A stretch of DNA of 64,000 nt from an uncultured bacterium (GTDB lineage: Bacteria > Krumholzibacteriota > Krumholzibacteriia > LZORAL124-64-63): positions 62,001-126,000 of the forward strand of contig CALEMW010000220.1 in the NCBI GenBank assembly GCA_937910695.1. Reading direction: 5' to 3'. The position numbers and the translations under genes are program-made. Positions 15,643-27,170 of this stretch are shown in pieces. Positions within the stretch are counted from its first letter, which is position 1, and the number at the start of each line of letters is the position of its first letter. The notes beneath the pieces are model-generated. The model was given only the letters and a program-made list of their open reading frames with translations, was not told where the DNA came from and did not search any database.

Positions 15643-16881
15643 TCAGTCGTTCCAGGATCCAGTGAGAGTCTGCGAGACGGCCATGCCGCCGGTCCCGTCC
15701 TCCTCCATCTTCTTCTTCTCACCACCGTCGTCACGCACGCCCAAGTCGGTGCGAGCCCACTTGGTCGTCCCCGCGGGCAGAACGGTGACGTCAGTCTCCC
15801 AGTCGATGCCGGGTTCCTTGCGGAAAACGAACTCTCCCTCGTCGACATCGATCATCACGAGATCGCCTCGTCGGATCTGCTCGCTGCAGATGTAGTGGGA
15901 GATCGGGGTCACGAGGCGCTTCTCAACGACGCGCTTCAGAGGTCGGGCTCCGAACTCAGGGTCCGTGCCCTCGGCCACGAGCTGGGCCTTGGCCCGCTGT
16001 GTGACTTCGAGCAGGAACGGTTCCGCACAGAGCAGGGCGCGGCGGTGGATGCCGGCGATCTGGTTGTCCAGAATCCGGTAGAGGTGATCTTCCTTGAGGG
16101 TCCCGTAGGTGATCAGGTCGTCGAAGCGGTTGAGGAACTCGGCAGGGAAGACCTTCTTGGCCTCACGGTTCACAGCGTCCACAAGGTCCTTATCGACCTG
16201 ATTGGCATCATGGCCCGTACTAAAGCCGATGTTGTTCCGCGCAAGGTGCCGATTCATCACTTTGCTGCCCACATTCGACGTGAGCACGATGATCGAGCGC
16301 GTGAAGTCCACCTCTTCGTTGTTGGCCAGGATCAGATGGCCATCTTCGAGGATACCGAGAAGGGTGTTCCACATCTTGGGGTGGGCCTTTTCGACTTCAT
16401 CGAAGAGCACGATGTTGAGGTAGCGTTCCGCCTCGGGTGGGAACATCTCACCGAGACGACTGTCGGCTTCGCTGATCAGTCCGGAGCGTTTCTCGATCGC
16501 CTTGAGGTGATGGCGGTCGAGGTTCTCCTGGGCCAGCAACGGCCGGATCTCTCCGCCGACATAGCCGGGAGGCGAGCCGAGCAGCTTGGAGATGTTGTAG
16601 TGGGCCGAGAACTCCTGGCAGTTGATGCGGGTGAACGCCCGCCGGTCGCCGAAGATCGTCTCGGCCAGGCAGCGCACCGTCTCGGTCTTGCCCACGCCGG
16701 TGGGCCCGAGGAACATCATCGTCAGCAGGGGCCGTTCGGGATCGTGGATGCCCGCGATCAGACGACTGAAGCTGTCGGTGATGCGGACGCTGGCATCGGG
16801 CTGCCCGATGACCATTTCGTCCATCCGATGCTGAAAGCGCCTGAGTTGTCCACCGACCATTCCGGACTTGAGTTCGATCAC
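15643..16881 (-). CDS. Standalone Clp D2-type AAA+ ATPase (AAA_2 + ClpB D2-small)
   Basis: Walker A FLGPTGVGKTE, LLGSPPGYVGG pore loop, Walker B VLFDEVEKAH, TSNVG sensor, FGARPLKRVVEKRLVTPIS small domain. No N domain, D1 or M domain in the ORF. Confidence 0.93.
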   Translation of the reverse strand: MIELKSGMVGGQLRRFQHRMDEMVIGQPDASVRITDSFSRLIAGIHDPERPLLTMMFLGPTGVGKTETVRCLAETIFGDRRAFTRINCQEFSAHYNISKLLGSPPGYVGGEIRPLLAQENLDRHHLKAIEKRSGLISEADSRLGEMFPPEAERYLNIVLFDEVEKAHPKMWNTLLGILEDGHLILANNEEVDFTRSIIVLTSNVGSKVMNRHLARNNIGFSTGHDANQVDKDLVDAVNREAKKVFPAEFLNRFDDLITYGTLKEDHLYRILDNQIAGIHRRALLCAEPFLLEVTQRAKAQLVAEGTDPEFGARPLKRVVEKRLVTPISHYICSEQIRRGDLVMIDVDEGEFVFRKEPGIDWETDVTVLPAGTTKWARTDLGVRDDGGEKKKMEEDGTGGMAVSQTLTGSWND

Positions 16882-16952
16882 GTCCTACTCCTCGCCATCT
16901 TGCGCTATATGAACCGGTTCGCGACCGGCTGCTGATTCGCGACCATGAGGAA

Positions 16953-16990
16953 ACCCGCCTCCCCCCTGTCTTCGGACGGGGAAAGGCGGG
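16953..16990 (-). terminator. Terminator of the 17-27 kb minus-strand operon
   Basis: cccgcct...ctgtc-ttcg-gacgggg..aggcggg imperfect hairpin with tetraloop directly downstream of the last gene. Confidence 0.6.
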
Positions 16991-17034
16991 CTTGAGTGCA
17001 AACAGGCGAAAATCTTCTGCGTTTAAGGACTTGA

Positions 17035-18759
17035 TCAGTCCAGGTAAGGCTTACTGAGGTACGCCGCCTGTTCGATGTCGGCCTTCTCGACCCAGCGGTC
17101 GTCGACCCGAGGACGGACGGGTGAATACTTGATCACGTAGGCCTCAAGGGATTCGGCCGTGGTGATCTGGGTCAATTCGATGCGCGAAGCCGGGATCGTG
17201 GTCAGGAAGTCCAGGCCGCTGTTGCCCTCCATGAGGAAGGAGGTGCAGACGACGCGGTAGTCCTTTTCTTGATCGAGAGGCTCGCCGCCCACGAGGAATC
17301 CGCAGCAGCGGTCGCCGTCGGGCCGGTTGCCGTCATACGTGATCTGGGCGCCCGAGATACAGATCCCCCCAGAGTCGCCCTGGACCTTGCGTTCGACCAG
17401 ACGGCGCAGCATGGAGCCCTTCATGGTCACGACCACGAGTTCATTGCCGAAGGGCAGTATGCTGAAGACGTCGCGGGCGGTGATGTTGCCCGCCGGTACG
17501 TCGGAGCGCAGGCCGCCGAGGTTCTGGAACGAGAAGTCGGCGTCGAAATACTCTCGCATGGCGTCGGTCACGATGTTGCCGACGAGGTTGCTGCCCGGAC
17601 CTCCCCTGGTGAGGTTGACGGCGGCCGTACCGATCACGCGTCCCATTTCAGCCTCGGTCATTTCGATGTACGGGTGCAGGGCTGCGGCCATGGTTTCTTC
17701 GGGCCAGAGTTCGTCCTCGAACAGAGTGATCAGAGTGCCGCGATCATGGGGTGCGTCGTAGCCCACGATCATGCCGGCCTGCGGATCGATCTTCAGGATG
17801 GCGTGGCCGATGCTGGAACCATTGCCGTAACTCTCGAAGCACAGTGTGTGATTCTCGGGGTCGATCCAGGGTTTTTCATAGCCGCGGTGGGTATGTCCGC
17901 CGACGGCGAAGTCGATGCCGGACACGCTGTTGACCAGTTCCATGAGGTTCATCGAACCTGTCTGGACATAGCCGTAGCCGCCGCCTGCATCGTTCTGGGT
18001 GTCTTCGGCCTCTTCCTGAGAAGTGACGATGCGCTTCCAGCCCTCGTCGGGATCGAAGGGCAGGCCTTCGTGGATCAGCAGACCTACAAGGTCGCAACCG
18101 TCGGCCCGCAACTCATCGCGCCAGCGCTCGATGGTCGGGGCCATGGGGTCGAAGATCAGGCCACGGATGTTGTCCGGGAAAGCCATATGGACGGTGGCCG
18201 GCGTGCAGATACCGATCAGTCCGATCTTCACGCCTCCCTTGTCGAACACGATGGTCGGTTGGCACCAGTCCACGATCTCGCCGGTGGATTCCTCGATGAT
18301 GTTGGCGCAGATCCAGGGCGCATCGGTGGCACGGGCCAGGCGCTCGCAGTTCTCGCGGCCCATGTCGAAGTCGTGGTTGCCCGGAACGATGGCGTCGTAG
18401 CGGATGGTGTTGAAGAACTCCACCACCGCATCGCCCTTGGTTTTGGAACCCACGGGGGTGCCTTGGAAGGTGTCGCCAGCATCGAGCAGGAGCACCGGTT
18501 CGCCGGCCAGGGCCGCCGCGGCGCGCACCTCCTCGACGTAGGTCATCATCGAGGCGCCGCCGCCCAGAGGGGGCGGGAACGCCGGGTTCATGAAGCGCGC
18601 CATCTCGGGGGCGATGTGGCCGTGCAAGTCGTTGGTCCACATCAGGTGCAGGCGCACCAGGCCGTCGTCGTCGTTGCCGGCGCCGGTGGAACCGACGGCG
18701 GCCAACAGCACGAGCGCGGCAAGGACGGCGCAGCGGATCGTTCGTCTTGTCGGATGCAT
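17035..18759 (-). CDS. 5'-nucleotidase / 2',3'-cyclic-nucleotide phosphodiesterase family (UshA-like), secreted
   Basis: Signal peptide, WTNDLHGHI, LLLDAGDTFQGTPV, AIVPGNHDFDMG, VGGHTHRGYE; 5'-nucleotidase C-terminal domain NLVGNIVTDAMREYFDADFSFQNLGGLRSDVPAGNIT. Confidence 0.94.
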   Translation of the reverse strand: MHPTRRTIRCAVLAALVLLAAVGSTGAGNDDDGLVRLHLMWTNDLHGHIAPEMARFMNPAFPPPLGGGASMMTYVEEVRAAAALAGEPVLLLDAGDTFQGTPVGSKTKGDAVVEFFNTIRYDAIVPGNHDFDMGRENCERLARATDAPWICANIIEESTGEIVDWCQPTIVFDKGGVKIGLIGICTPATVHMAFPDNIRGLIFDPMAPTIERWRDELRADGCDLVGLLIHEGLPFDPDEGWKRIVTSQEEAEDTQNDAGGGYGYVQTGSMNLMELVNSVSGIDFAVGGHTHRGYEKPWIDPENHTLCFESYGNGSSIGHAILKIDPQAGMIVGYDAPHDRGTLITLFEDELWPEETMAAALHPYIEMTEAEMGRVIGTAAVNLTRGGPGSNLVGNIVTDAMREYFDADFSFQNLGGLRSDVPAGNITARDVFSILPFGNELVVVTMKGSMLRRLVERKVQGDSGGICISGAQITYDGNRPDGDRCCGFLVGGEPLDQEKDYRVVCTSFLMEGNSGLDFLTTIPASRIELTQITTAESLEAYVIKYSPVRPRVDDRWVEKADIEQAAYLSKPYLD

Positions 18760-18793
18760 GGTCGTCTCCTTCATCGTCCGTCCGCTCCCCGAT

Positions 18794-20071
18794 CTAGAAC
18801 GCATAAGTGAAGCTCGCGCCGAGGCGGAAATGAGTTTCGTCGACCCGCGACGTGGGTTCGGTGTCGAACCCCTCGGGATAGGCGAAGAAGTGCGCCTGCT
18901 GGGACGAGACCTTCCCCATGTCCGCGGAGATGTTGATCATGCCGTCGACGTAGGGAAACGCGACACCGGCGGAGAATACGCTCGTGCTGACTTCCTCGTC
19001 GGCGTAGTAGTCCGCGTGCCGGAATCCGAATCGCACCGGGACACCGTTGTAGAACAGGTGCTCCACCCCGACACGGTAGTCCAAAGTGTTCTCGAGCATG
19101 ACGTCGCCGTCGACGGTGCTGTTCTCGAGCTGGGACCATTCGCTCCAGACCACTTCGGTCGTGAACACGGTGCGGGGGTCGGAACGGGGGTTCAAGGCCA
19201 GGCCGGCGCGGACGCGGCGGGGATAGCGGATGCCCAGGTGTTGGGATGTGGCGGCCGTGCCCGCGGCGGTGCCGGTTGTAACCTCCAACTTGCCCCCGAC
19301 ATCGACGGGAGATTCAAGGGAGGCGCCCAAGGTCACGCGTTCGGTGGCCGCGAGGCTGAAGCCTGCGGTCACGCTCAGGCCGTCGGCATTCCACTCAGAA
19401 ATCCGCGAAGACGAACCTGCATCATTCTGATAGTCGCGACGCAGCACTTCGCCGGTCACAGTCCCGAACAGGTAATGGGCGGCGATGCCGAGACTCAGCT
19501 TGTCGGACACGGACCATCCCGCGCCCAGTCCGAGGTCACGGATGGCCCCATCAAGCCCCAGAGAACGCTCTTCGAGGATCTGATCCCGAGGATCGGAGAA
19601 TGAATCCGGGTCGCGGATCTGCTCGGAGAAATCGTAGGAAAAATCGTAACGGGTGGTCAGCGATACACCGCCCCCGAAACGGGTGCCGAAGCCCTTCGCC
19701 GCGGCGAAGCCCGTGTCGAAGTAGTGGTGGCGATTGCTGGCGATGGCCGTGTCGACGACGAAGCTGCCGAAGCTGTCCCACAGAGGCTGGAAACGGTCTT
19801 CGTGCTGCTGGGTCAGACCCAGGCCGCCGTCCACGCGCCAGCCCGTCGCGGCGCCCAAATGGGCTGGGTTGAGGACCGTGGAAAAACCGCCGCGGTCGAC
19901 GGCGGCGCCGGTGCCGCCCATGGCGTTGATCTCGGCGCTCAGCCAGTTGCCGGTCGAGCCGTAGTCGGCATCGAGCACGGAGCCAGCGAAGACCGAGGTC
20001 GCCGCCAGCACCAGGACCACAGCCAAGGCCGCGCCCCGGATCCTGCTATCGTTGTGCTTGTTCTGCATCAT
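18794..20071 (-). CDS. OmpP1/FadL-like outer membrane beta-barrel protein
   Basis: Signal peptide, NAMGGTGAAVDRGGFSTVLNPAHLGA N-terminal region, repeated amphipathic strands, C-terminal aromatic SFTYAF. Confidence 0.75.
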   Translation of the reverse strand: MMQNKHNDSRIRGAALAVVLVLAATSVFAGSVLDADYGSTGNWLSAEINAMGGTGAAVDRGGFSTVLNPAHLGAATGWRVDGGLGLTQQHEDRFQPLWDSFGSFVVDTAIASNRHHYFDTGFAAAKGFGTRFGGGVSLTTRYDFSYDFSEQIRDPDSFSDPRDQILEERSLGLDGAIRDLGLGAGWSVSDKLSLGIAAHYLFGTVTGEVLRRDYQNDAGSSSRISEWNADGLSVTAGFSLAATERVTLGASLESPVDVGGKLEVTTGTAAGTAATSQHLGIRYPRRVRAGLALNPRSDPRTVFTTEVVWSEWSQLENSTVDGDVMLENTLDYRVGVEHLFYNGVPVRFGFRHADYYADEEVSTSVFSAGVAFPYVDGMINISADMGKVSSQQAHFFAYPEGFDTEPTSRVDETHFRLGASFTYAF

Positions 20072-20087
20072 TGCTTCCGTCTCCCGA

Positions 20088-22574
20088 TCAGAAGGAGTAG
20101 TCCATCTGCAGGCGGAACGATGTCCAATCCCGCGGGATGTAACTGCTTTCGAAAGCGGGGCCGTAGGCCTCGCCGTAACGTCGAATGTCCAGGTTGGTCA
20201 ACGGCAAATTATGGTCGCGGGTCACCTTGAGCTGGAAAAGCAGCTGATCGGAGACACGGCTTTCGACCTTGAACCAGTTGCGGAACCCCTTGCCGTCGAC
20301 GACCACGAACTCGTTGCCCTCGAAGTTCCAGAGGAACCCGTTGTAGATCTCCGAACTCATCTGCAGACGGACGCCCGTACTCAGATGATGCTCGTACATG
20401 ACCTGGAAGGCGTTGGCAGGGATGGCGGCGGTGCCGACACCCGGAATGCCGTCGTAGCTGCCGGCGTCGGCCGGTTCGGCGTGGCCGCTGAGCCGCGGAC
20501 GCGGCGGGAACCACACGTTGCTGGTCATGAACATGAACTTCAGGCTGTTGTACTCGGACAGCAGCGTGATGAGTTCGAAGCGCGATTCCCAGGACTGGAA
20601 CCAGCGCACGTCGTTCGTATTCGTCTCCGCGCGGCTGCTGAAGCGGTGCCGCATGCGCAGACGGAAGTTGAACTTGGGCTGGTACTCCATCTTCAGGGTG
20701 TAGCGCGTCATATCGATGCCGTCGGCCTGCCGCTTCCACTGGTCGAACTCGAGCCCGTTGATGATCAGGCTGCGGCTGATGCGGTAGCGCGTCTGCAGGA
20801 ACATGCCCTGGCCCGGCTTTGGCTGGGGCGTGTTGAGGGACAGCCAGCTGTAGAACGGGTTGTTGAGCCTGTAGTAGGAATCGAGCAGGGTCTGCTCGTA
20901 GCGGTTGTCGTTCTCGAAGGCCCGGTTGTACGGATTGTCGAAGCCGACGTCCTGGTCGCGGTAGATCGCCAGCAGGTGCAGGTTCTCCCACTGGGCGAAG
21001 CCGTTGAGCACCAGGGCGTCCTTGACCTGCCCGTGGAACCAGTCCTTGGTGGGGTCCTGGAGCACGGCGTACTCGCCTTGGAACGAGACGTTGTCGAAAA
21101 CCGTCTGAAATTCGGTGCCGTAGACCCGCCGGAACTTGTGCTCGGTGATCTCGCCGGTCTTCTCGTCCACCTCGATGCTCGTGTAGCCCTGGTAGATCTC
21201 GCTGTCCCGGGCTTCGATCAGATCGCGAGCCTCGACCAGGACGTCCGTGTCGGCGTTGAACGCGCGGTCGTGGGTCGCCTCGTAAGCGGTGAAGCCCACA
21301 TAGGTGGCGTCGTTGAGCATGACTTTGACGTTGCCGCCGATCATGTTCTCCTCGAAGGCGTCGCGACGGATCTCGCCGTTCAGCCCCAGGTCGCTGATCA
21401 CATCGAGTTCCTCGTCGGTGGGACGGGGATTCATCGTCACGTAACGGTTGATGGTCCCGTCCGGATTGAGGATGCCGTCCTTCTTGTCCCACGAGGTGAA
21501 CAGCGTGGTGTGGAAACGACCGATGCGTCCCTCCATGCCGATCCCCGTCAAGGCAGCCTCGCGGGAACGACTCAGGTCGCCGCGGACGCCAGTGGGACGC
21601 TTGTTCCAACCGAAACCGGTGCGCCGGTACTGATAGAAGTCGGTGTTGTCCATCACCAGGCCCTGGCCAAAGGCGACACGGTAGTTGCCGAAGTACAGAT
21701 TCTTGAGATGGAAGGGACCGAGGTCCTTGTCCTTGACGCCGTAGTAGGCCTTCGTGGTGTCGTGCCACGACTCCTCGCCCATGTTGCGGTGCGTGAGCAC
21801 GCCGGCACGGAAGCCGCCCGTCAGGTTCAGGCTCAGCTTATGGGTCATGTGGGGGTCGCCCTCTGCCAGACGGGGAGCCAGAGGTGTGTTGACCTCAACC
21901 TCGGTATCGTCGGACGAATAAGGCGTGTCGTAATACCGCATCTGGTAATTGCCGTGGACCTTGTCGCCCCCGCCCTTCTCCTCTTCCGAGTAGACGACGA
22001 AGTCGCGCAGGCTCCGGAACGAGAAGTAACGCAGGCCATTGGACTGCCTCAGTTGCCGGTCGTTCTCGAAACGGCCCAACCGGCTGCGCGTCGCCAGAAT
22101 GTTGCGGGCATCGACGGGCGAGACGTTCTGGAACGACTGCAGGTCGAACAGGTCGAGCTGGTTGACGTCGACGGGGTCCCGGATCAGATCCAGGTACTCG
22201 TCGGCAAGGCCCTCGCTGGCGCCCTCCTGCCCCATATAACGGCTCACCTGACGGTACGATGCTGTGAGCCGCGCGATGGACGCGTCCCGGGCATCGGGCG
22301 GCATGGTCGAGACCAACGGGCGCAGGGCCGCGAGGTGCTCGGTGGTCATGCCCTCGACCTCCATGAGGTCATAGAGGCTGCTGAAGTAGCGCACGTAGGT
22401 GCGGTAGTCGACGATGCTCCGCGCCAACTCCTCGGGAATCGGCAGGTCCTGCACCTCGGCCAAAGTGGCCCGGTTCAGGTCCAGCTTGTCCGGAGAAGCG
22501 GCCGCGGCCGCTCCGCAGAGGATCACGCCCAGCAGCAGGGCGGCGATCCCGGCGGTTGTTCTCCGCGTCATCAC
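20088..22574 (-). CDS. Helix-hairpin-helix (ComEA-like) domains fused to a predicted outer-membrane beta-barrel
   Basis: Signal peptide; HhH-1 LDLNRATLAEVQDLPIPEELARSIVDYRTYVRYFSSLYDLMEVEGM; HhH-2 VDVNQLDLFDLQSFQNVSPVDARNILATRSRLGRFENDRQL; then ~600 aa of strand-rich barrel-like sequence ending in LQMDYSF. Confidence 0.8.
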   Translation of the reverse strand: MMTRRTTAGIAALLLGVILCGAAAAASPDKLDLNRATLAEVQDLPIPEELARSIVDYRTYVRYFSSLYDLMEVEGMTTEHLAALRPLVSTMPPDARDASIARLTASYRQVSRYMGQEGASEGLADEYLDLIRDPVDVNQLDLFDLQSFQNVSPVDARNILATRSRLGRFENDRQLRQSNGLRYFSFRSLRDFVVYSEEEKGGGDKVHGNYQMRYYDTPYSSDDTEVEVNTPLAPRLAEGDPHMTHKLSLNLTGGFRAGVLTHRNMGEESWHDTTKAYYGVKDKDLGPFHLKNLYFGNYRVAFGQGLVMDNTDFYQYRRTGFGWNKRPTGVRGDLSRSREAALTGIGMEGRIGRFHTTLFTSWDKKDGILNPDGTINRYVTMNPRPTDEELDVISDLGLNGEIRRDAFEENMIGGNVKVMLNDATYVGFTAYEATHDRAFNADTDVLVEARDLIEARDSEIYQGYTSIEVDEKTGEITEHKFRRVYGTEFQTVFDNVSFQGEYAVLQDPTKDWFHGQVKDALVLNGFAQWENLHLLAIYRDQDVGFDNPYNRAFENDNRYEQTLLDSYYRLNNPFYSWLSLNTPQPKPGQGMFLQTRYRISRSLIINGLEFDQWKRQADGIDMTRYTLKMEYQPKFNFRLRMRHRFSSRAETNTNDVRWFQSWESRFELITLLSEYNSLKFMFMTSNVWFPPRPRLSGHAEPADAGSYDGIPGVGTAAIPANAFQVMYEHHLSTGVRLQMSSEIYNGFLWNFEGNEFVVVDGKGFRNWFKVESRVSDQLLFQLKVTRDHNLPLTNLDIRRYGEAYGPAFESSYIPRDWTSFRLQMDYSF

Positions 22575-23458
22575 GGGGCCTCACCGCCCCACGCGAAGGT
22601 CATGCCGAACTGGTGGCTGGGCTTGAGCACCCCGCCGCCGGTGGAGTACGCGTAGTTCACGCCGAAGCCCTCGAAGCTGTAGCCGAAGCCGGCGGACAGT
22701 TTGTTGGGGTTGGTCATGATGCCCGTGCGCAGATAGAGGTTCTCGAGGACCGAGAACTCGACGCCGCCGTGGTACATCGGGTCCAGGCCGAGCCGCGACT
22801 CGATCTCGAAGACCGTCGTCACACCGTCGTACGGCTCGTAGGCGAGGCCGCCGTGCAGGCGCTGGACGAGTTCCTCGTTGTCGAGGCCGATCTGGGGGTT
22901 GTTGATGTTCTTGACCATCACACCTATGCGCGTGCGCCGGTGCAGAGAGACCAGGAAGCCGACATCGGCGCCGGTGGTCATCGCATCGCCGGGATCGATC
23001 CCGGTGACCGTCTCGCCGAATTCGAGGCGGTAGAAGTTCAGCGCCGAACCGAAGTCGATGGTCGTGTGCAGGTCCTCGTACAGGCGGATGCCGTGGGCGA
23101 GGGTGAAGGTCGACTCGGTGTGGAGGTCGACGCCTTCGAACGTGGTGGCGAAGCGCCGCAGGCCGAAGCCCACGCCGCCGTACCGCCCGGCGGGGATGAC
23201 CCCGCCGAAATACAGCTGGTCGGTGAAGTCCAGCTGGTGGGGTTTCACGTAGGAGTTACCCAGGGAATACATCGTCTGGGCGGCCATGCCGGCCGGGTTG
23301 AAGTACGGAGCGAAGGCGTCGTCCGCCGTCGCCACCCCGGCGTCGCCCATGGCGCGGGCGCGGGGGCTGGTATCGAGGTTGTCGAATGCCGCCCAGGCCG
23401 TTCCCGCGGCGAGGCCGAGGGTCAGGACGGCGAGCACCAGAATCGTGATTCGCTTCAT
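22571..23458 (-). CDS. PorV/PorQ-family outer membrane protein
   Basis: Signal peptide, SPRARAMGDAGVATADDAFAPYFNPAGMA motif characteristic of PorV/PorQ proteins, beta-barrel strand pattern. Confidence 0.85.
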   Translation of the reverse strand: MKRITILVLAVLTLGLAAGTAWAAFDNLDTSPRARAMGDAGVATADDAFAPYFNPAGMAAQTMYSLGNSYVKPHQLDFTDQLYFGGVIPAGRYGGVGFGLRRFATTFEGVDLHTESTFTLAHGIRLYEDLHTTIDFGSALNFYRLEFGETVTGIDPGDAMTTGADVGFLVSLHRRTRIGVMVKNINNPQIGLDNEELVQRLHGGLAYEPYDGVTTVFEIESRLGLDPMYHGGVEFSVLENLYLRTGIMTNPNKLSAGFGYSFEGFGVNYAYSTGGGVLKPSHQFGMTFAWGGEAP

Positions 23459-23471
23459 TGCTCCTGTCCTC

Positions 23472-26400
23472 CTAGTCGCTCAGGCGGGTTGCAACAACGG
23501 CCGGGGCGACGCGCTCCTGGCGGTCCCCCGTCGTCTTGTCGACCACCTGCAGATGCACGATGTAGGTGCCGGCCTTGACCAGGCCGTAGAATTCGTCGCG
23601 GCCGTCCCAGAAGAAATCGAGACGGTTGATGGCCGCTCCGTCGTTGGAGAAGCGGTTGTCGTAGAGGGTCAGAACGACGCGACCATCCATGTCCAGGATC
23701 CTCAGCACGGCTTCGGTTCCCTCGGGGAAAGTGACCGTGATGGGGAATTTCTCGTTGAAGGTCGGCAGGAAGGTCATCGCCGGCACGTTCAGGGAGATCC
23801 GTTCGAGGACGGTGAACCCGTTGGGTGCGACTTCACCGGCTGCCGGGAAGAAAGCCTCGGCCGTCGCGTAGGTGATCGTGACCCACCACGCCACCTCCAC
23901 GCCCCCCGGGAAGGCCGGCACGTCGCAGGACCAGGTGCCGGAATCCTCGCTCATAACCACCTCGTGGACCGAGCCCCCGTCGATGGTATAGGAGAAGGTC
24001 AAGAGTGTGGGATCGCCAAGGTCGTCCCGCTCCACCAGGGTGAGGCTGAACATCGACGGGGTATCGGCCGGGGGCTGGGGCGGGTCGAAGGCGTAGGTCG
24101 CCACGTACTCGCTGTAGTCGCCCGGAGTGCCCGTCGAGACGCGCCACGTGGTGTTGTAGTTTTCGCTGGTCTCGTCGTGGTCGGTAGTGCCGTTGCCGCC
24201 GGTAACGGATTCGGTCCCCTCGCCCGCATCGATGCGCTGGAAGGACTCGCCCACCGCGTGGGTCAGGCCGAACTCCTCCTGCGAGGCCAGCGGCGTGTCG
24301 TTGGCGTAGGCCGTGCCGTTGACCGACACGTTCTGGCGATCGACGCGGGCGCTGGCACTCGAGCCCCACTGGAACATATCGATGTCCGTGGTCAGGTCGC
24401 TGACCTGGTCCCAGTGATAGAGCACGACGATCTCGGCGCCGTTGGTCAGGGTCGCAGGTTCGCCTGTGGGGCTGCCAAGGCGGCTGCCGGAGAAGACGTC
24501 GCGCATCTCCGGTACAGAGCCGCCGCCCACCAGCTGGAGATCAGGCTGGGCACCGGCCCATGAGCCGGCAAAGGATTCGGCGCCGGCGATGGAGATCGTC
24601 AGGGTCTGGCCCGGCTGGATCATCATGTCGGCCGGGAAGCGGGCGTTGAAGTCGAAGAAGTCGCCGCCGCCGATGCTGCCCTGGTTCGGGTTTCCTGCGG
24701 GCAGCATGTAGTAGGCCTGCTCGTAGTGGACCGCGTCGGTCAGGTAGTAGTTGTCGAGGGCCACCGCTTCGGTGGTGGGGTTGTAGATCTCGACGAACTC
24801 GTGTGGCGAGGCCGAAACACAGACCTCGGTCAGCAGCAGGTGCGGGGGATCCGGCATGGGCTCGGGCTGCTCCTCCACCGTGAAGGTCTCGACGGTGGAC
24901 GGGGCGTCCTCGGGCCAGGCCGCCGTCACGCCTCCGTCGCCGAGGGCCGTGACGTACCAGGTGACCACGGTGCCGAGGATCTGCTGGGGCACGGCGCCGG
25001 ACCAGTCGCCACCGCCGCCGTCGGTGCAGACGACGTCGGCGAATGCGCCGCCGTTGACTGCGTAGTGCAGAGTTACACTCGTAACCGCCACCAGGCTTGT
25101 CAACGAGGCGGTCACGATGGTGGCCTCGTCCGGGTTGGGACGGCTCGGCGTGGAGAAGGCACCGGTGAAGACCATCGACTCGACGTTGTATTCACCCGGC
25201 GAAGCCGTCGTCGCAGCCTGCCAGGTGCCGTTGAGGTTCTCGCCGGTCTCATCGTGGCCGCCGGGGCCGTTGCCGCCGAAGATAGCCTCGGTGCCCTCGC
25301 TGGGGTCGAGGCGCTGGAAGCTGCCGCCGATGTCGTGGACGGCCATGAACTGGTCCTGGGAAGCGATGGGCGTGTCGTTCATGTAGGTGGATCCACCCAC
25401 GCTCACGCCCGTGCGGTCAACTCTAGCGCTGGTGCTCGCACCCCAGAAGAACATGTCGATGTCGGTGACCAGATCGCTGACGCCGTCCCAGAAGTAGAGA
25501 ACGACGATCTCGGCGCCGTTGGTCAGCGTCGCCGCCGATCCGTCGGTGCCGCCGAGCAGGCTACCGGGGAAGATTTCGCGCATATCTGGGATCGCGTCGG
25601 CCGAGCCGCCGTCTTCCGTCATTTCGATATCGGGCTGCAAGCCCCAGGTGGTGTTGAAGATCTCGCTGCCCGGAAGCGCGAGGGTCAGGGTCTCGCCTGC
25701 ACCAATCTCCAGACCTGCTGGAAAACGGGCATGGAAGTCGGCGAAGTCGCCGCCGCCGACCGTCGCCTGGGACAGGTTGCCTGCGGGTACGAGCCAATAG
25801 CCCTGGGTGTTGTAGACGGCGTCGGTGAGGTAGTAGTTATCGAGAGCCACAGCGTCGTCGGTAGGATTGTGGATCTCGATGAATTCATGAGTCGCACCCT
25901 GAACACAGACTTCGCTCAGCAACAGGTGAGCCGGACCATCGCCCGGCTCCGGCATCTGCTGAACCGTGAAGTCGCGGGTGTAGAACGGCGCATGGGCGGG
26001 CCAGACAGTGGCGGCGCCGCCATTTCCCTCTGCATCGAGGTACCAGGATACGTCGGTGCCCTGGACCTGGCCGGGAATCGCCGCGCTCCAGTCGTCGCCG
26101 GCGGGAGTAGCGACGACGTCTGTCCAGAACAGGCCGCCGTCAGTCGTGTAATGAAGAGTGACCGAGTTCACGGCATCGAACGCCGTCACCGTGGCGGTCA
26201 CCGAGGCTGGCAACGAGGCATAGACCGTCGCCGGAGCCACGACGTTCGCGAAGATCGGAGCGGCGGCCGGGGCAGTGCCCGTGGAGGTCGCCGTCTGGGT
26301 GGTGGTGATCCAGGTGGCCGTCAGAGGCTCGCTGGTCTCATCGTCGCCACCGAAGCCGTTGCCGCCGGTCGCGGTTTCGCCCGTCTCTTCTTCATCGGTG

Positions 26401-27170
26401 CGGGCGAAGGCCTGGCCGTAGCCATGGGCGGTCAGATCGTCCTGGCTCGCTACAGCCGTATCGGGCTGGTAGGCTGAGGCGATGGCGTCGGCGTCGGGGC
26501 CGTCGACGCTCTGGCCCGTCTTGAGCACGCGGTAGGTGTTGGTCCCGCCCCAGAGCACGTAGTCCAGGTCGACGACCAGGTCGCTTGCACCGTCCCACTG
26601 GTACATGACCACGGACTCGCCCGTGTCGCTGAGCCAGCCGTCGGTCAACGGCGCGTTGGTCTCCGAGGAGCCCAGACCGTGGCCGACGCTGCCCGGAAAC
26701 GCCTCGACCATATCGGCCACCGCGTCGGCAGACGTGCCGTCTTCGAAGAGCTCGAAATCAGGCGTCGTGCCGGGATAGGAAAGTGTAAAAGCACTGCTGC
26801 CGGCCAGGGAGACCACGAAGGTCTCTCCCGCGCCGAGGGTCGTTCCCGCGGGAAAGCGAACGTGGAAATCGCCGCTCACACCGCCGCCTCCGGCCAGGCC
26901 GCCCTGGACGAGCTGCCAGTAGCCGACACCCGTGAAGATGGCGTCGGTCAGGTAGACGTCCGACAGATCCAAAGGACCGGCGGTCGGGTTGAGGATCTTG
27001 ACGTATTCGCTGCCGAGGCTGGGGACCCCGGGACGCTCCTTCATCACGACTTCGGTGATCAGGAGGTGGTCAGATGCGGCGGCTGCGGTCATCGGTAGGA
27101 CGATCGCGGCAACGGCAAGGACCAGCAGCGTCGTCGCGACGGCATGCAGGCTCCGAGATGGGTAGGACAT
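23472..27170 (-). CDS. Large secreted protein with three lamin-tail-domain modules and a C-terminal FlgD-Ig-like domain
   Basis: Signal peptide; repeated LLITEV/LLLSEVCVQGATHEFIEIHNPT/LLLTEVCVSASPHEFVEIYNPT modules; C-terminal TFLPTFNEKFPITVTFPEGTEAVLRILDMDGRVVLTLYDN...FFWDGRDEFYGLVKAGTYIVHLQV. Confidence 0.9.
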   Translation of the reverse strand: MSYPSRSLHAVATTLLVLAVAAIVLPMTAAAASDHLLITEVVMKERPGVPSLGSEYVKILNPTAGPLDLSDVYLTDAIFTGVGYWQLVQGGLAGGGGVSGDFHVRFPAGTTLGAGETFVVSLAGSSAFTLSYPGTTPDFELFEDGTSADAVADMVEAFPGSVGHGLGSSETNAPLTDGWLSDTGESVVMYQWDGASDLVVDLDYVLWGGTNTYRVLKTGQSVDGPDADAIASAYQPDTAVASQDDLTAHGYGQAFARTDEEETGETATGGNGFGGDDETSEPLTATWITTTQTATSTGTAPAAAPIFANVVAPATVYASLPASVTATVTAFDAVNSVTLHYTTDGGLFWTDVVATPAGDDWSAAIPGQVQGTDVSWYLDAEGNGGAATVWPAHAPFYTRDFTVQQMPEPGDGPAHLLLSEVCVQGATHEFIEIHNPTDDAVALDNYYLTDAVYNTQGYWLVPAGNLSQATVGGGDFADFHARFPAGLEIGAGETLTLALPGSEIFNTTWGLQPDIEMTEDGGSADAIPDMREIFPGSLLGGTDGSAATLTNGAEIVVLYFWDGVSDLVTDIDMFFWGASTSARVDRTGVSVGGSTYMNDTPIASQDQFMAVHDIGGSFQRLDPSEGTEAIFGGNGPGGHDETGENLNGTWQAATTASPGEYNVESMVFTGAFSTPSRPNPDEATIVTASLTSLVAVTSVTLHYAVNGGAFADVVCTDGGGGDWSGAVPQQILGTVVTWYVTALGDGGVTAAWPEDAPSTVETFTVEEQPEPMPDPPHLLLTEVCVSASPHEFVEIYNPTTEAVALDNYYLTDAVHYEQAYYMLPAGNPNQGSIGGGDFFDFNARFPADMMIQPGQTLTISIAGAESFAGSWAGAQPDLQLVGGGSVPEMRDVFSGSRLGSPTGEPATLTNGAEIVVLYHWDQVSDLTTDIDMFQWGSSASARVDRQNVSVNGTAYANDTPLASQEEFGLTHAVGESFQRIDAGEGTESVTGGNGTTDHDETSENYNTTWRVSTGTPGDYSEYVATYAFDPPQPPADTPSMFSLTLVERDDLGDPTLLTFSYTIDGGSVHEVVMSEDSGTWSCDVPAFPGGVEVAWWVTITYATAEAFFPAAGEVAPNGFTVLERISLNVPAMTFLPTFNEKFPITVTFPEGTEAVLRILDMDGRVVLTLYDNRFSNDGAAINRLDFFWDGRDEFYGLVKAGTYIVHLQVVDKTTGDRQERVAPAVVATRLSD
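24424..25526. repeat. Internal DNA repeat within the LTD gene, in-frame offset of 1077 bp (359 codons)
   Basis: acgacgatctcggcgccgttggtcag occurs at 24424 and again at 25501; flanking sequence is also similar. Confidence 0.85.

Follow-up and report, generated by a model that had tools for sequence, protein, structure and literature searches.

Why should a bacterium encode a lamin-tail surface protein, a series of outer-membrane barrels and a secreted phosphoesterase side by side? The question is raised by a stretch of 64,000 nucleotides (nt), hereafter the window, from the metagenome-assembled genome of an uncultured Krumholzibacteriota bacterium (class Krumholzibacteriia), in whose coordinates all positions without a locus number are given. 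Its minus strand carries five neighbouring genes, encoding in order a lamin-tail domain (LTD) protein, a PorV-like protein, an HhH-barrel, a FadL-like protein and an UshA-like phosphoesterase, and a preliminary description had seen in them a candidate operon for the capture of extracellular DNA and nucleotides. At least five bacterial phyla share the order of these genes, and it is well supported that they form a cassette that is a conserved functional unit. That this unit captures and processes extracellular nucleic acid or nucleotide products at the cell surface, a function suggested by predicted folds and gene neighbourhoods, is a reading to which we give an even chance. The genes, and the parts of them discussed below, are the following.

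23472-27170, minus strand: LTD protein of 1232 amino acids (aa), ATG at 27170, with a signal peptide and three lamin-tail domains (Pfam LTD 4.1e-26, CBM_56 1.1e-10)
23475-23801, minus strand: C-terminal ~109 aa of the LTD protein, resembling FlgD and the PorU C-terminal domain (CTD), conserved in nearly all relatives; presumed sorting or anchoring domain of the type IX secretion system (T9SS)
22571-23458, minus strand: PorV/PorQ-family-like outer-membrane barrel of 295 aa (NF033709 1.9e-17, under cut-off); presumed dedicated shuttle or anchor for the LTD protein
20088-22574, minus strand: HhH-barrel of 828 aa, GTG start, single copy in the genome, predicted outer-membrane barrel of ~24 strands ending in F
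21975-22493, minus strand: N-terminal helical region of the HhH-barrel, two HHH_3 repeats without Gly-h-Gly hairpins, acidic
18794-20071, minus strand: FadL/BamG-fold outer-membrane barrel of 425 aa (NF053685 8.8e-18, under cut-off; AlphaFold2 pLDDT 91.9)
17035-18804, minus strand: UshA-like secreted metallophosphoesterase of 589 aa, occupying what we call the enzyme slot (Pfam 5_nucleotid_C 1.7e-34, Metallophos 3e-9)
16951-16993, minus strand: terminator-like hairpin at the end of the operon, judged by folding energy and shuffled sequences

The LTD and PorV-like genes are separated by 13 nt, the PorV-like and HhH-barrel genes overlap by 4 nt, and 16 nt lie between the HhH-barrel and FadL-like genes; at the last junction, the first ATG of the UshA-like gene gives an 11-nt overlap, and the ATG that precedes the signal peptide (MHPTRR) a gap of ~34 nt. 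At the hairpin, a 95-nt stretch folds at -38.3 kcal/mol (z = -3.2), a value equalled by none of 200 shuffled sequences. The five same-strand genes, tight junctions and closing hairpin of the preliminary description were all recovered, the hairpin at 16951-16993. Of its domain calls, the three lamin-tail domains, HHH_3 and the UshA-type phosphoesterase were confirmed with Pfam and NCBIfam, while the terms PorV-like and FadL-like have to be qualified, both proteins scoring under the curated cut-offs.

The HhH-barrel is present in 38 of 38 genomes of the window's own family, in some as contig-end fragments, and in three of four genomes of a second family of the class; none of the 38 remaining genomes of the class encodes a full-length copy. 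As far as contigs reach, genomes of the own family show the genes as LTD-PorV-HhH-FadL-UshA throughout; alone this says little, because the flanking genes are syntenic there as well. Among named genomes scanned beyond the class, the HhH-barrel turned up in Calditrichota, Neomarinimicrobiota, Cloacimonadota, WOR-3 and Eisenbacteria. The cassette order recurs at ~26-37% identity in Calditrichota, Neomarinimicrobiota and WOR-3, and partly in Cloacimonadota and Eisenbacteria; outside the class the window's flanking genes are gone while the cassette neighbours persist. Counted over 49 loci from other families and phyla, the partners found with the HhH-barrel are FadL (43 loci), PorV (39), LTD (37) and the phosphoesterase (37); the next commonest neighbour is found at 10, and the median junctions within the cassette are 3-12 nt. 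Pairwise identities of the PorV, HhH-barrel, FadL and phosphoesterase proteins correlate (r = 0.87-0.97), as expected under co-inheritance. Full-length HhH-barrels occur in 22 of the 24 Calditrichota genomes searched; in this phylum a 4.98-Mb contig (L175) carries the whole cassette and a second LTD gene. As a control, five loci with short HhH-barrel paralogues (L180-L184) were inspected and found to lack all four partners, apart from one weak LTD-type match at an edge. There are exceptions to the order: the LTD and PorV genes are non-adjacent in three of four Cloacimonadota loci, and the phosphoesterase is absent from several Calditrichota loci. The association of the HhH-barrel with nucleotidase and LTD genes in relatives is thus conserved across several phyla, further than had been claimed for it; we found no published description of the cassette in the open-access literature. 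Adjoining the cassette in the window is a gene for a single-AAA ClpB-like protein of 412 aa (15643-16881), which is kept there in Krumholzibacteriota families and not in other phyla.

What the unit does is best approached from the enzyme slot. By motif, ~28 of the 50 phosphoesterases keep the full set of metal ligands and ~21 are degenerate; one (L027), a partial stretch, was left unjudged. Since ~21 copies have lost metal ligands, selection does not maintain nucleotidase activity in all lineages. All 11 degenerate phosphoesterases of Neomarinimicrobiota are fused to an EEP/DNase I-like domain whose catalytic motifs are largely intact; a second EEP gene usually follows the fusion, and in L121 this second EEP is fused too. 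EEP domains of the slot match ExeM/NucH and MnuA nucleases, and in another Neomarinimicrobiota locus (L140) an intact phosphoesterase is followed by an EEP gene matching ExeM/NucH (5.5e-11). The three WOR-3-type loci each have a pair of PLD genes ahead of a truncated, degenerate phosphoesterase; the HKD motifs of these PLD genes are intact, and NucT is among their matches. In L104 and L105, from another family of Krumholzibacteriota, a secreted lipoprotein-like MBL protein is encoded between FadL and the phosphoesterase. In some Neomarinimicrobiota, the phosphoesterase gene is followed directly by one for a conserved secreted protein of 226 aa (L117:8488-9165, L153:9327-10007). The positions of the proteins concerned are given here, together with that of a related protein of the window genome.

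L126:11855-13813: degenerate metallophosphoesterase-EEP fusion
L121:5279-8104: degenerate metallophosphoesterase-EEP fusion
L104:11871-13292: ComEC/Rec2-MBL-like protein (ComEC/Rec2 match 7.8e-15)
L105:11782-13233: ComEC/Rec2-MBL-like protein (ComEC/Rec2 match 1.6e-13)
L172:1135-2295 (G000 contig 170): secreted EEP/DNase I-type protein of the window genome

Four unrelated enzyme families recur in or beside one slot, and nucleic-acid or nucleotide chemistry is common to all of them; that the slot enzymes are exchangeable favours nucleic-acid processing. The preliminary description had noted the lack of a nuclease as its main gap. There is indeed none in the window's cassette, but comparison largely fills the gap, with EEP, PLD/NucT and ComEC-MBL proteins at the slot elsewhere and, on another contig of the window genome, a secreted lipoprotein-like EEP protein that is 42% identical over 275 aa to the cassette EEP of L140. 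The UshA-like protein of the window itself keeps the TNDLHGH, AGD, GNHDFD, IHEG and GGHTH motifs and the C-terminal domain, and because its metal ligands are intact the enzyme is probably active. It scores 156 bits, against a cut-off of 600 for the curated UshA equivalog, and a second 5'-nucleotidase is encoded in the genome.

The surface end of the unit would be formed by the LTD protein, in which Pfam recognizes three LTD stretches and which in the window copy has no EEP domain. Its best-kept block, in tblastn comparisons with own-family and distant loci, is the C-terminal ~109 aa. These match the PorU C-terminus weakly (15.2 bits), and the window protein gave no match to a Pfam C-terminal sorting domain, nor to any curated T9SS signal above cut-off. 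LTD-slot proteins of relatives, and LTD proteins encoded nearby, give FlgD_ig and Por_Secre_tail matches; OB folds occur in LTD-slot proteins of other phyla, and DUF5689 in one of these; LTD genes adjoining the cassette in relatives also bear DUF5689 and Por_Secre_tail, and the LTD-slot protein of L118 matches the non-catalytic part of ExeM/NucH (3.5e-11). Elsewhere in the window genome, a secreted protein (L168:3947-5971, G000 contig 226) has OB-fold-type repeats matching the same non-catalytic part and a FlgD-type C-terminus, with no EEP. The PorV-like protein reaches 22.9 of 250 bits with the curated PorV model and 63.9 of 90 bits with the PorV/PorQ family, both under cut-off, and is a divergent one among at least 10 PorV-family proteins of the genome. 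The genome encodes the type IX secretion translocon SprA, which scores above its cut-off (472 bits against 200), so that surface export by the type IX route is possible. Flavobacterium has examples of shuttle barrels that each serve an individual T9SS substrate (PMC12618676).

For the HhH-barrel, an AlphaFold2 model built with 44 relatives (pLDDT 82.9, pTM 0.79) shows a helical N-terminus at about residues 30-200 followed by roughly 24 strands, and the HHH_3 repeats are real by homology (Pfam 1.9e-17). A fold search against the PDB returned generic large barrels only, without a good match (FimD usher, TMt 0.46; MtrB, 0.39), and does not by itself identify the function of the protein; a PDB sequence search with the barrel profile returned HhH domains only. 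Two of the short paralogues, L180 and L181 of Calditrichota (~650 aa), lie beside ABC-transporter genes resembling an Mla/MCE set (MCE-like protein, permease, ATPase), a context different from that of the cassette and possibly lipid-related.

Taken together, these observations suggest an ancient outer-membrane cassette that would work as follows. The LTD protein would leave the cell through the type IX secretion system, and its own PorV-family barrel would anchor it at the surface via the C-terminal domain of the LTD protein. The HhH-barrel would provide passage across the outer membrane, its N-terminal helical domain serving as a periplasmic gate or docking element and not as a DNA clamp, with the FadL/BamG-like barrel as a second channel or a scaffold. 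Cutting would fall to the secreted phosphoesterase, exchangeable among UshA-like, EEP/DNase I-like, PLD/NucT-like and ComEC-MBL-like enzymes. Nucleic-acid capture and processing builds in this way on direct results, namely conservation of the unit and of the order of its genes, predicted folds, swaps of the slot enzyme and the presence of SprA in the genome, from which we infer surface display, substrate, passage and the order of every step. A bolder version, possible but doubtful in our judgement, is that of an outer-membrane nucleic-acid import machine, in which a ~24-strand barrel with a ComEA-derived gate has been inherited across several phyla with interchangeable surface or periplasmic nucleases and lets nucleic-acid fragments, or DNA, through independently of type IV pilus secretins.

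Several observations weigh against nucleic-acid capture and have to be set beside this scheme. In characterised 5'-nucleotidases, two aromatic positions stack on the base; in the window enzyme these sites (FLQV and GGDGF motifs) are replaced by GGICISG and EGNSGLDF, although the second site is a Y in some cassette copies, and its substrate may differ from plain nucleotides. The MBL genes have beta-lactamase families among their best or comparable NCBIfam matches. The EEP and PLD superfamilies also include phospholipid enzymes, and two of the four slot families could act on phospholipids as well. In Calditrichota, the phosphoesterase is degenerate in ~7 copies of the cassette that carry no enzyme in its place, and L113, L114, L118 and L130 have no cassette phosphoesterase. 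Finally, the Gly-h-Gly motif is found in none of 44 first hairpins and in one of 44 second hairpins of the HhH-barrels, and the HhH pair is acidic, with a mean net charge of -4.2 over relatives and -5 in the window. The window genome encodes a genuine, separate ComEA-type protein (L169:3792-4298, G000 contig 219), which has PGIGP and KGIGP hairpins and a charge of +3. The loss of the hairpin glycines and the acidic charge make direct DNA binding by the HhH domain unlikely, and we rejected it as a working mechanism; the domain fits better as a gate or docking element. The earlier view of a DNA and nucleotide capture operon survives, therefore, as a conserved unit for which nucleic-acid handling is plausible, and loses the HhH domain as its DNA binder, the features for that role being largely missing.

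Among other explanations, a role as an accessory of outer-membrane biogenesis or secretion comes first: the barrels and the surface protein would assemble into a structure comparable to the Bacteroidota BAM or T9SS shuttle complexes, with the phosphoesterase fold as a binding subunit able to lose activity. The FadL-like barrel, which matches no Pfam family above cut-off, is closest to BamG by NCBIfam sequence (64.5 of 250 bits, under cut-off), and its AlphaFold2 model has FadL and BamG as best PDB matches in Foldseek (TM 0.65-0.76; 0.70/0.76 with F. johnsoniae BamG). BamG is a FadL-fold BAM subunit that tethers a surface protein (PMC12611786). Many slot copies are pseudoenzymes, the PorV family is present, and the HhH-barrel is single copy and near-universal in Calditrichota, all of which would suit a structural complex. 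However, another protein of the genome (C233) matches BamG better (101 bits against 62), for which reason we rejected orthology of the FadL-like barrel with BamG; swaps among unrelated nucleases would not be expected of such a complex; and the cassette is missing from most other families of the class and hence not essential there. We regard this explanation as unlikely, though not negligible.

It is more improbable that the cassette serves DNA uptake for transformation, with the HhH-barrel as the outer-membrane DNA pore of these bacteria. A large barrel fused to a ComEA-type domain, the secreted ComEC-type MBL at two loci and the DUF5689 and OB domains of LTD-type proteins in or beside the cassette, which recall Riemerella anatipestifer (PMC8459023), all speak for such a pore; yet the HhH hairpins lack the DNA-binding glycines and are acidic, a canonical ComEA is encoded separately in the genome, and nucleases with 5'-nucleotidases suit consumption better than the import of intact DNA.

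Scavenging of phospholipid or organic phosphate in general is quite unlikely too. Here the slot enzymes would be lipases or phosphatases and the FadL-like barrel would import the lipid product, for which one can cite the FadL fold, the phospholipases of the EEP and PLD superfamilies, the matches of the WOR-3 PLD genes to cardiolipin synthase models and the short HhH-barrel paralogues beside ABC/MCE-type genes. The UshA, ComEC-MBL, ExeM/NucH and LTD/OB matches, however, all indicate nucleic acids or nucleotides, and no sphingomyelinase or lipase family is among the slot-enzyme matches. That unrelated genes became neighbours by accident, as the syntenic flanks within the own family might suggest, is refuted, and was rejected, on account of synteny across phyla with changed flanks and of the short paralogous barrels (L180-L184) that have no partners beside them.

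Little is known of how nucleic acids or their fragments cross the outer membrane of diderm bacteria by routes other than the type IV pilus, and the presence of the cassette in several mostly uncultured phyla, and in nearly all Calditrichota searched, makes the question testable. If nucleic-acid capture is correct, it would account for part of the cycling of extracellular DNA and phosphorus that these lineages carry out. The cassette also provides a name for the large-barrel family so far annotated by its HhH repeats only.

The nearest functional precedent is found in the DNA-degradation loci of Ca. Izemoplasmatales, where lamin-tail, nucleic-acid-binding and nuclease domains are united in one protein (PMC8289736). 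A lamin-tail and nuclease protein is co-located there with other nucleic-acid catabolism genes, but the hosts are wall-less and have no outer membrane, the gene set is different, and PorV-like, HhH-barrel and FadL-like genes are missing. ExeM/NucH unites LTD, OB and EEP in one protein; LTD and OB recur in cassette relatives and EEP in the same operon in Neomarinimicrobiota, whereas the window operon has no EEP, and the cassette EEP of relatives is either a separate protein or joined to a dead phosphoesterase. As with the PorV/PorQ barrels and CTD substrates of the T9SS, a PorV-family barrel gene lies beside that of a surface protein whose C-terminal domain is conserved, in a genome with SprA; unlike them, the window PorV-like protein falls under all curated cut-offs and its partner's CTD matches no curated signal above cut-off. 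Bacteroidota BamG shares the FadL fold and a sub-cut-off sequence match, whereas the window copy lies within this operon and is not the genome's best BamG match. ComEA shares HHH_3 homology, but the domain of the HhH-barrel is fused to an outer-membrane barrel, acidic and devoid of the hairpin glycines. Transformation of Riemerella anatipestifer requires a DUF5689 surface protein, a predicted outer-membrane barrel and an HhH protein, none of which is dispensable (PMC8459023). The three kinds of protein are those met in the cassette and its relatives; in Riemerella, however, they are encoded at separate loci, no cassette of such order is reported, and the HhH protein is predicted to be periplasmic with no barrel reported, while in the cassette the HhH repeats and the outer-membrane barrel are parts of a single protein.

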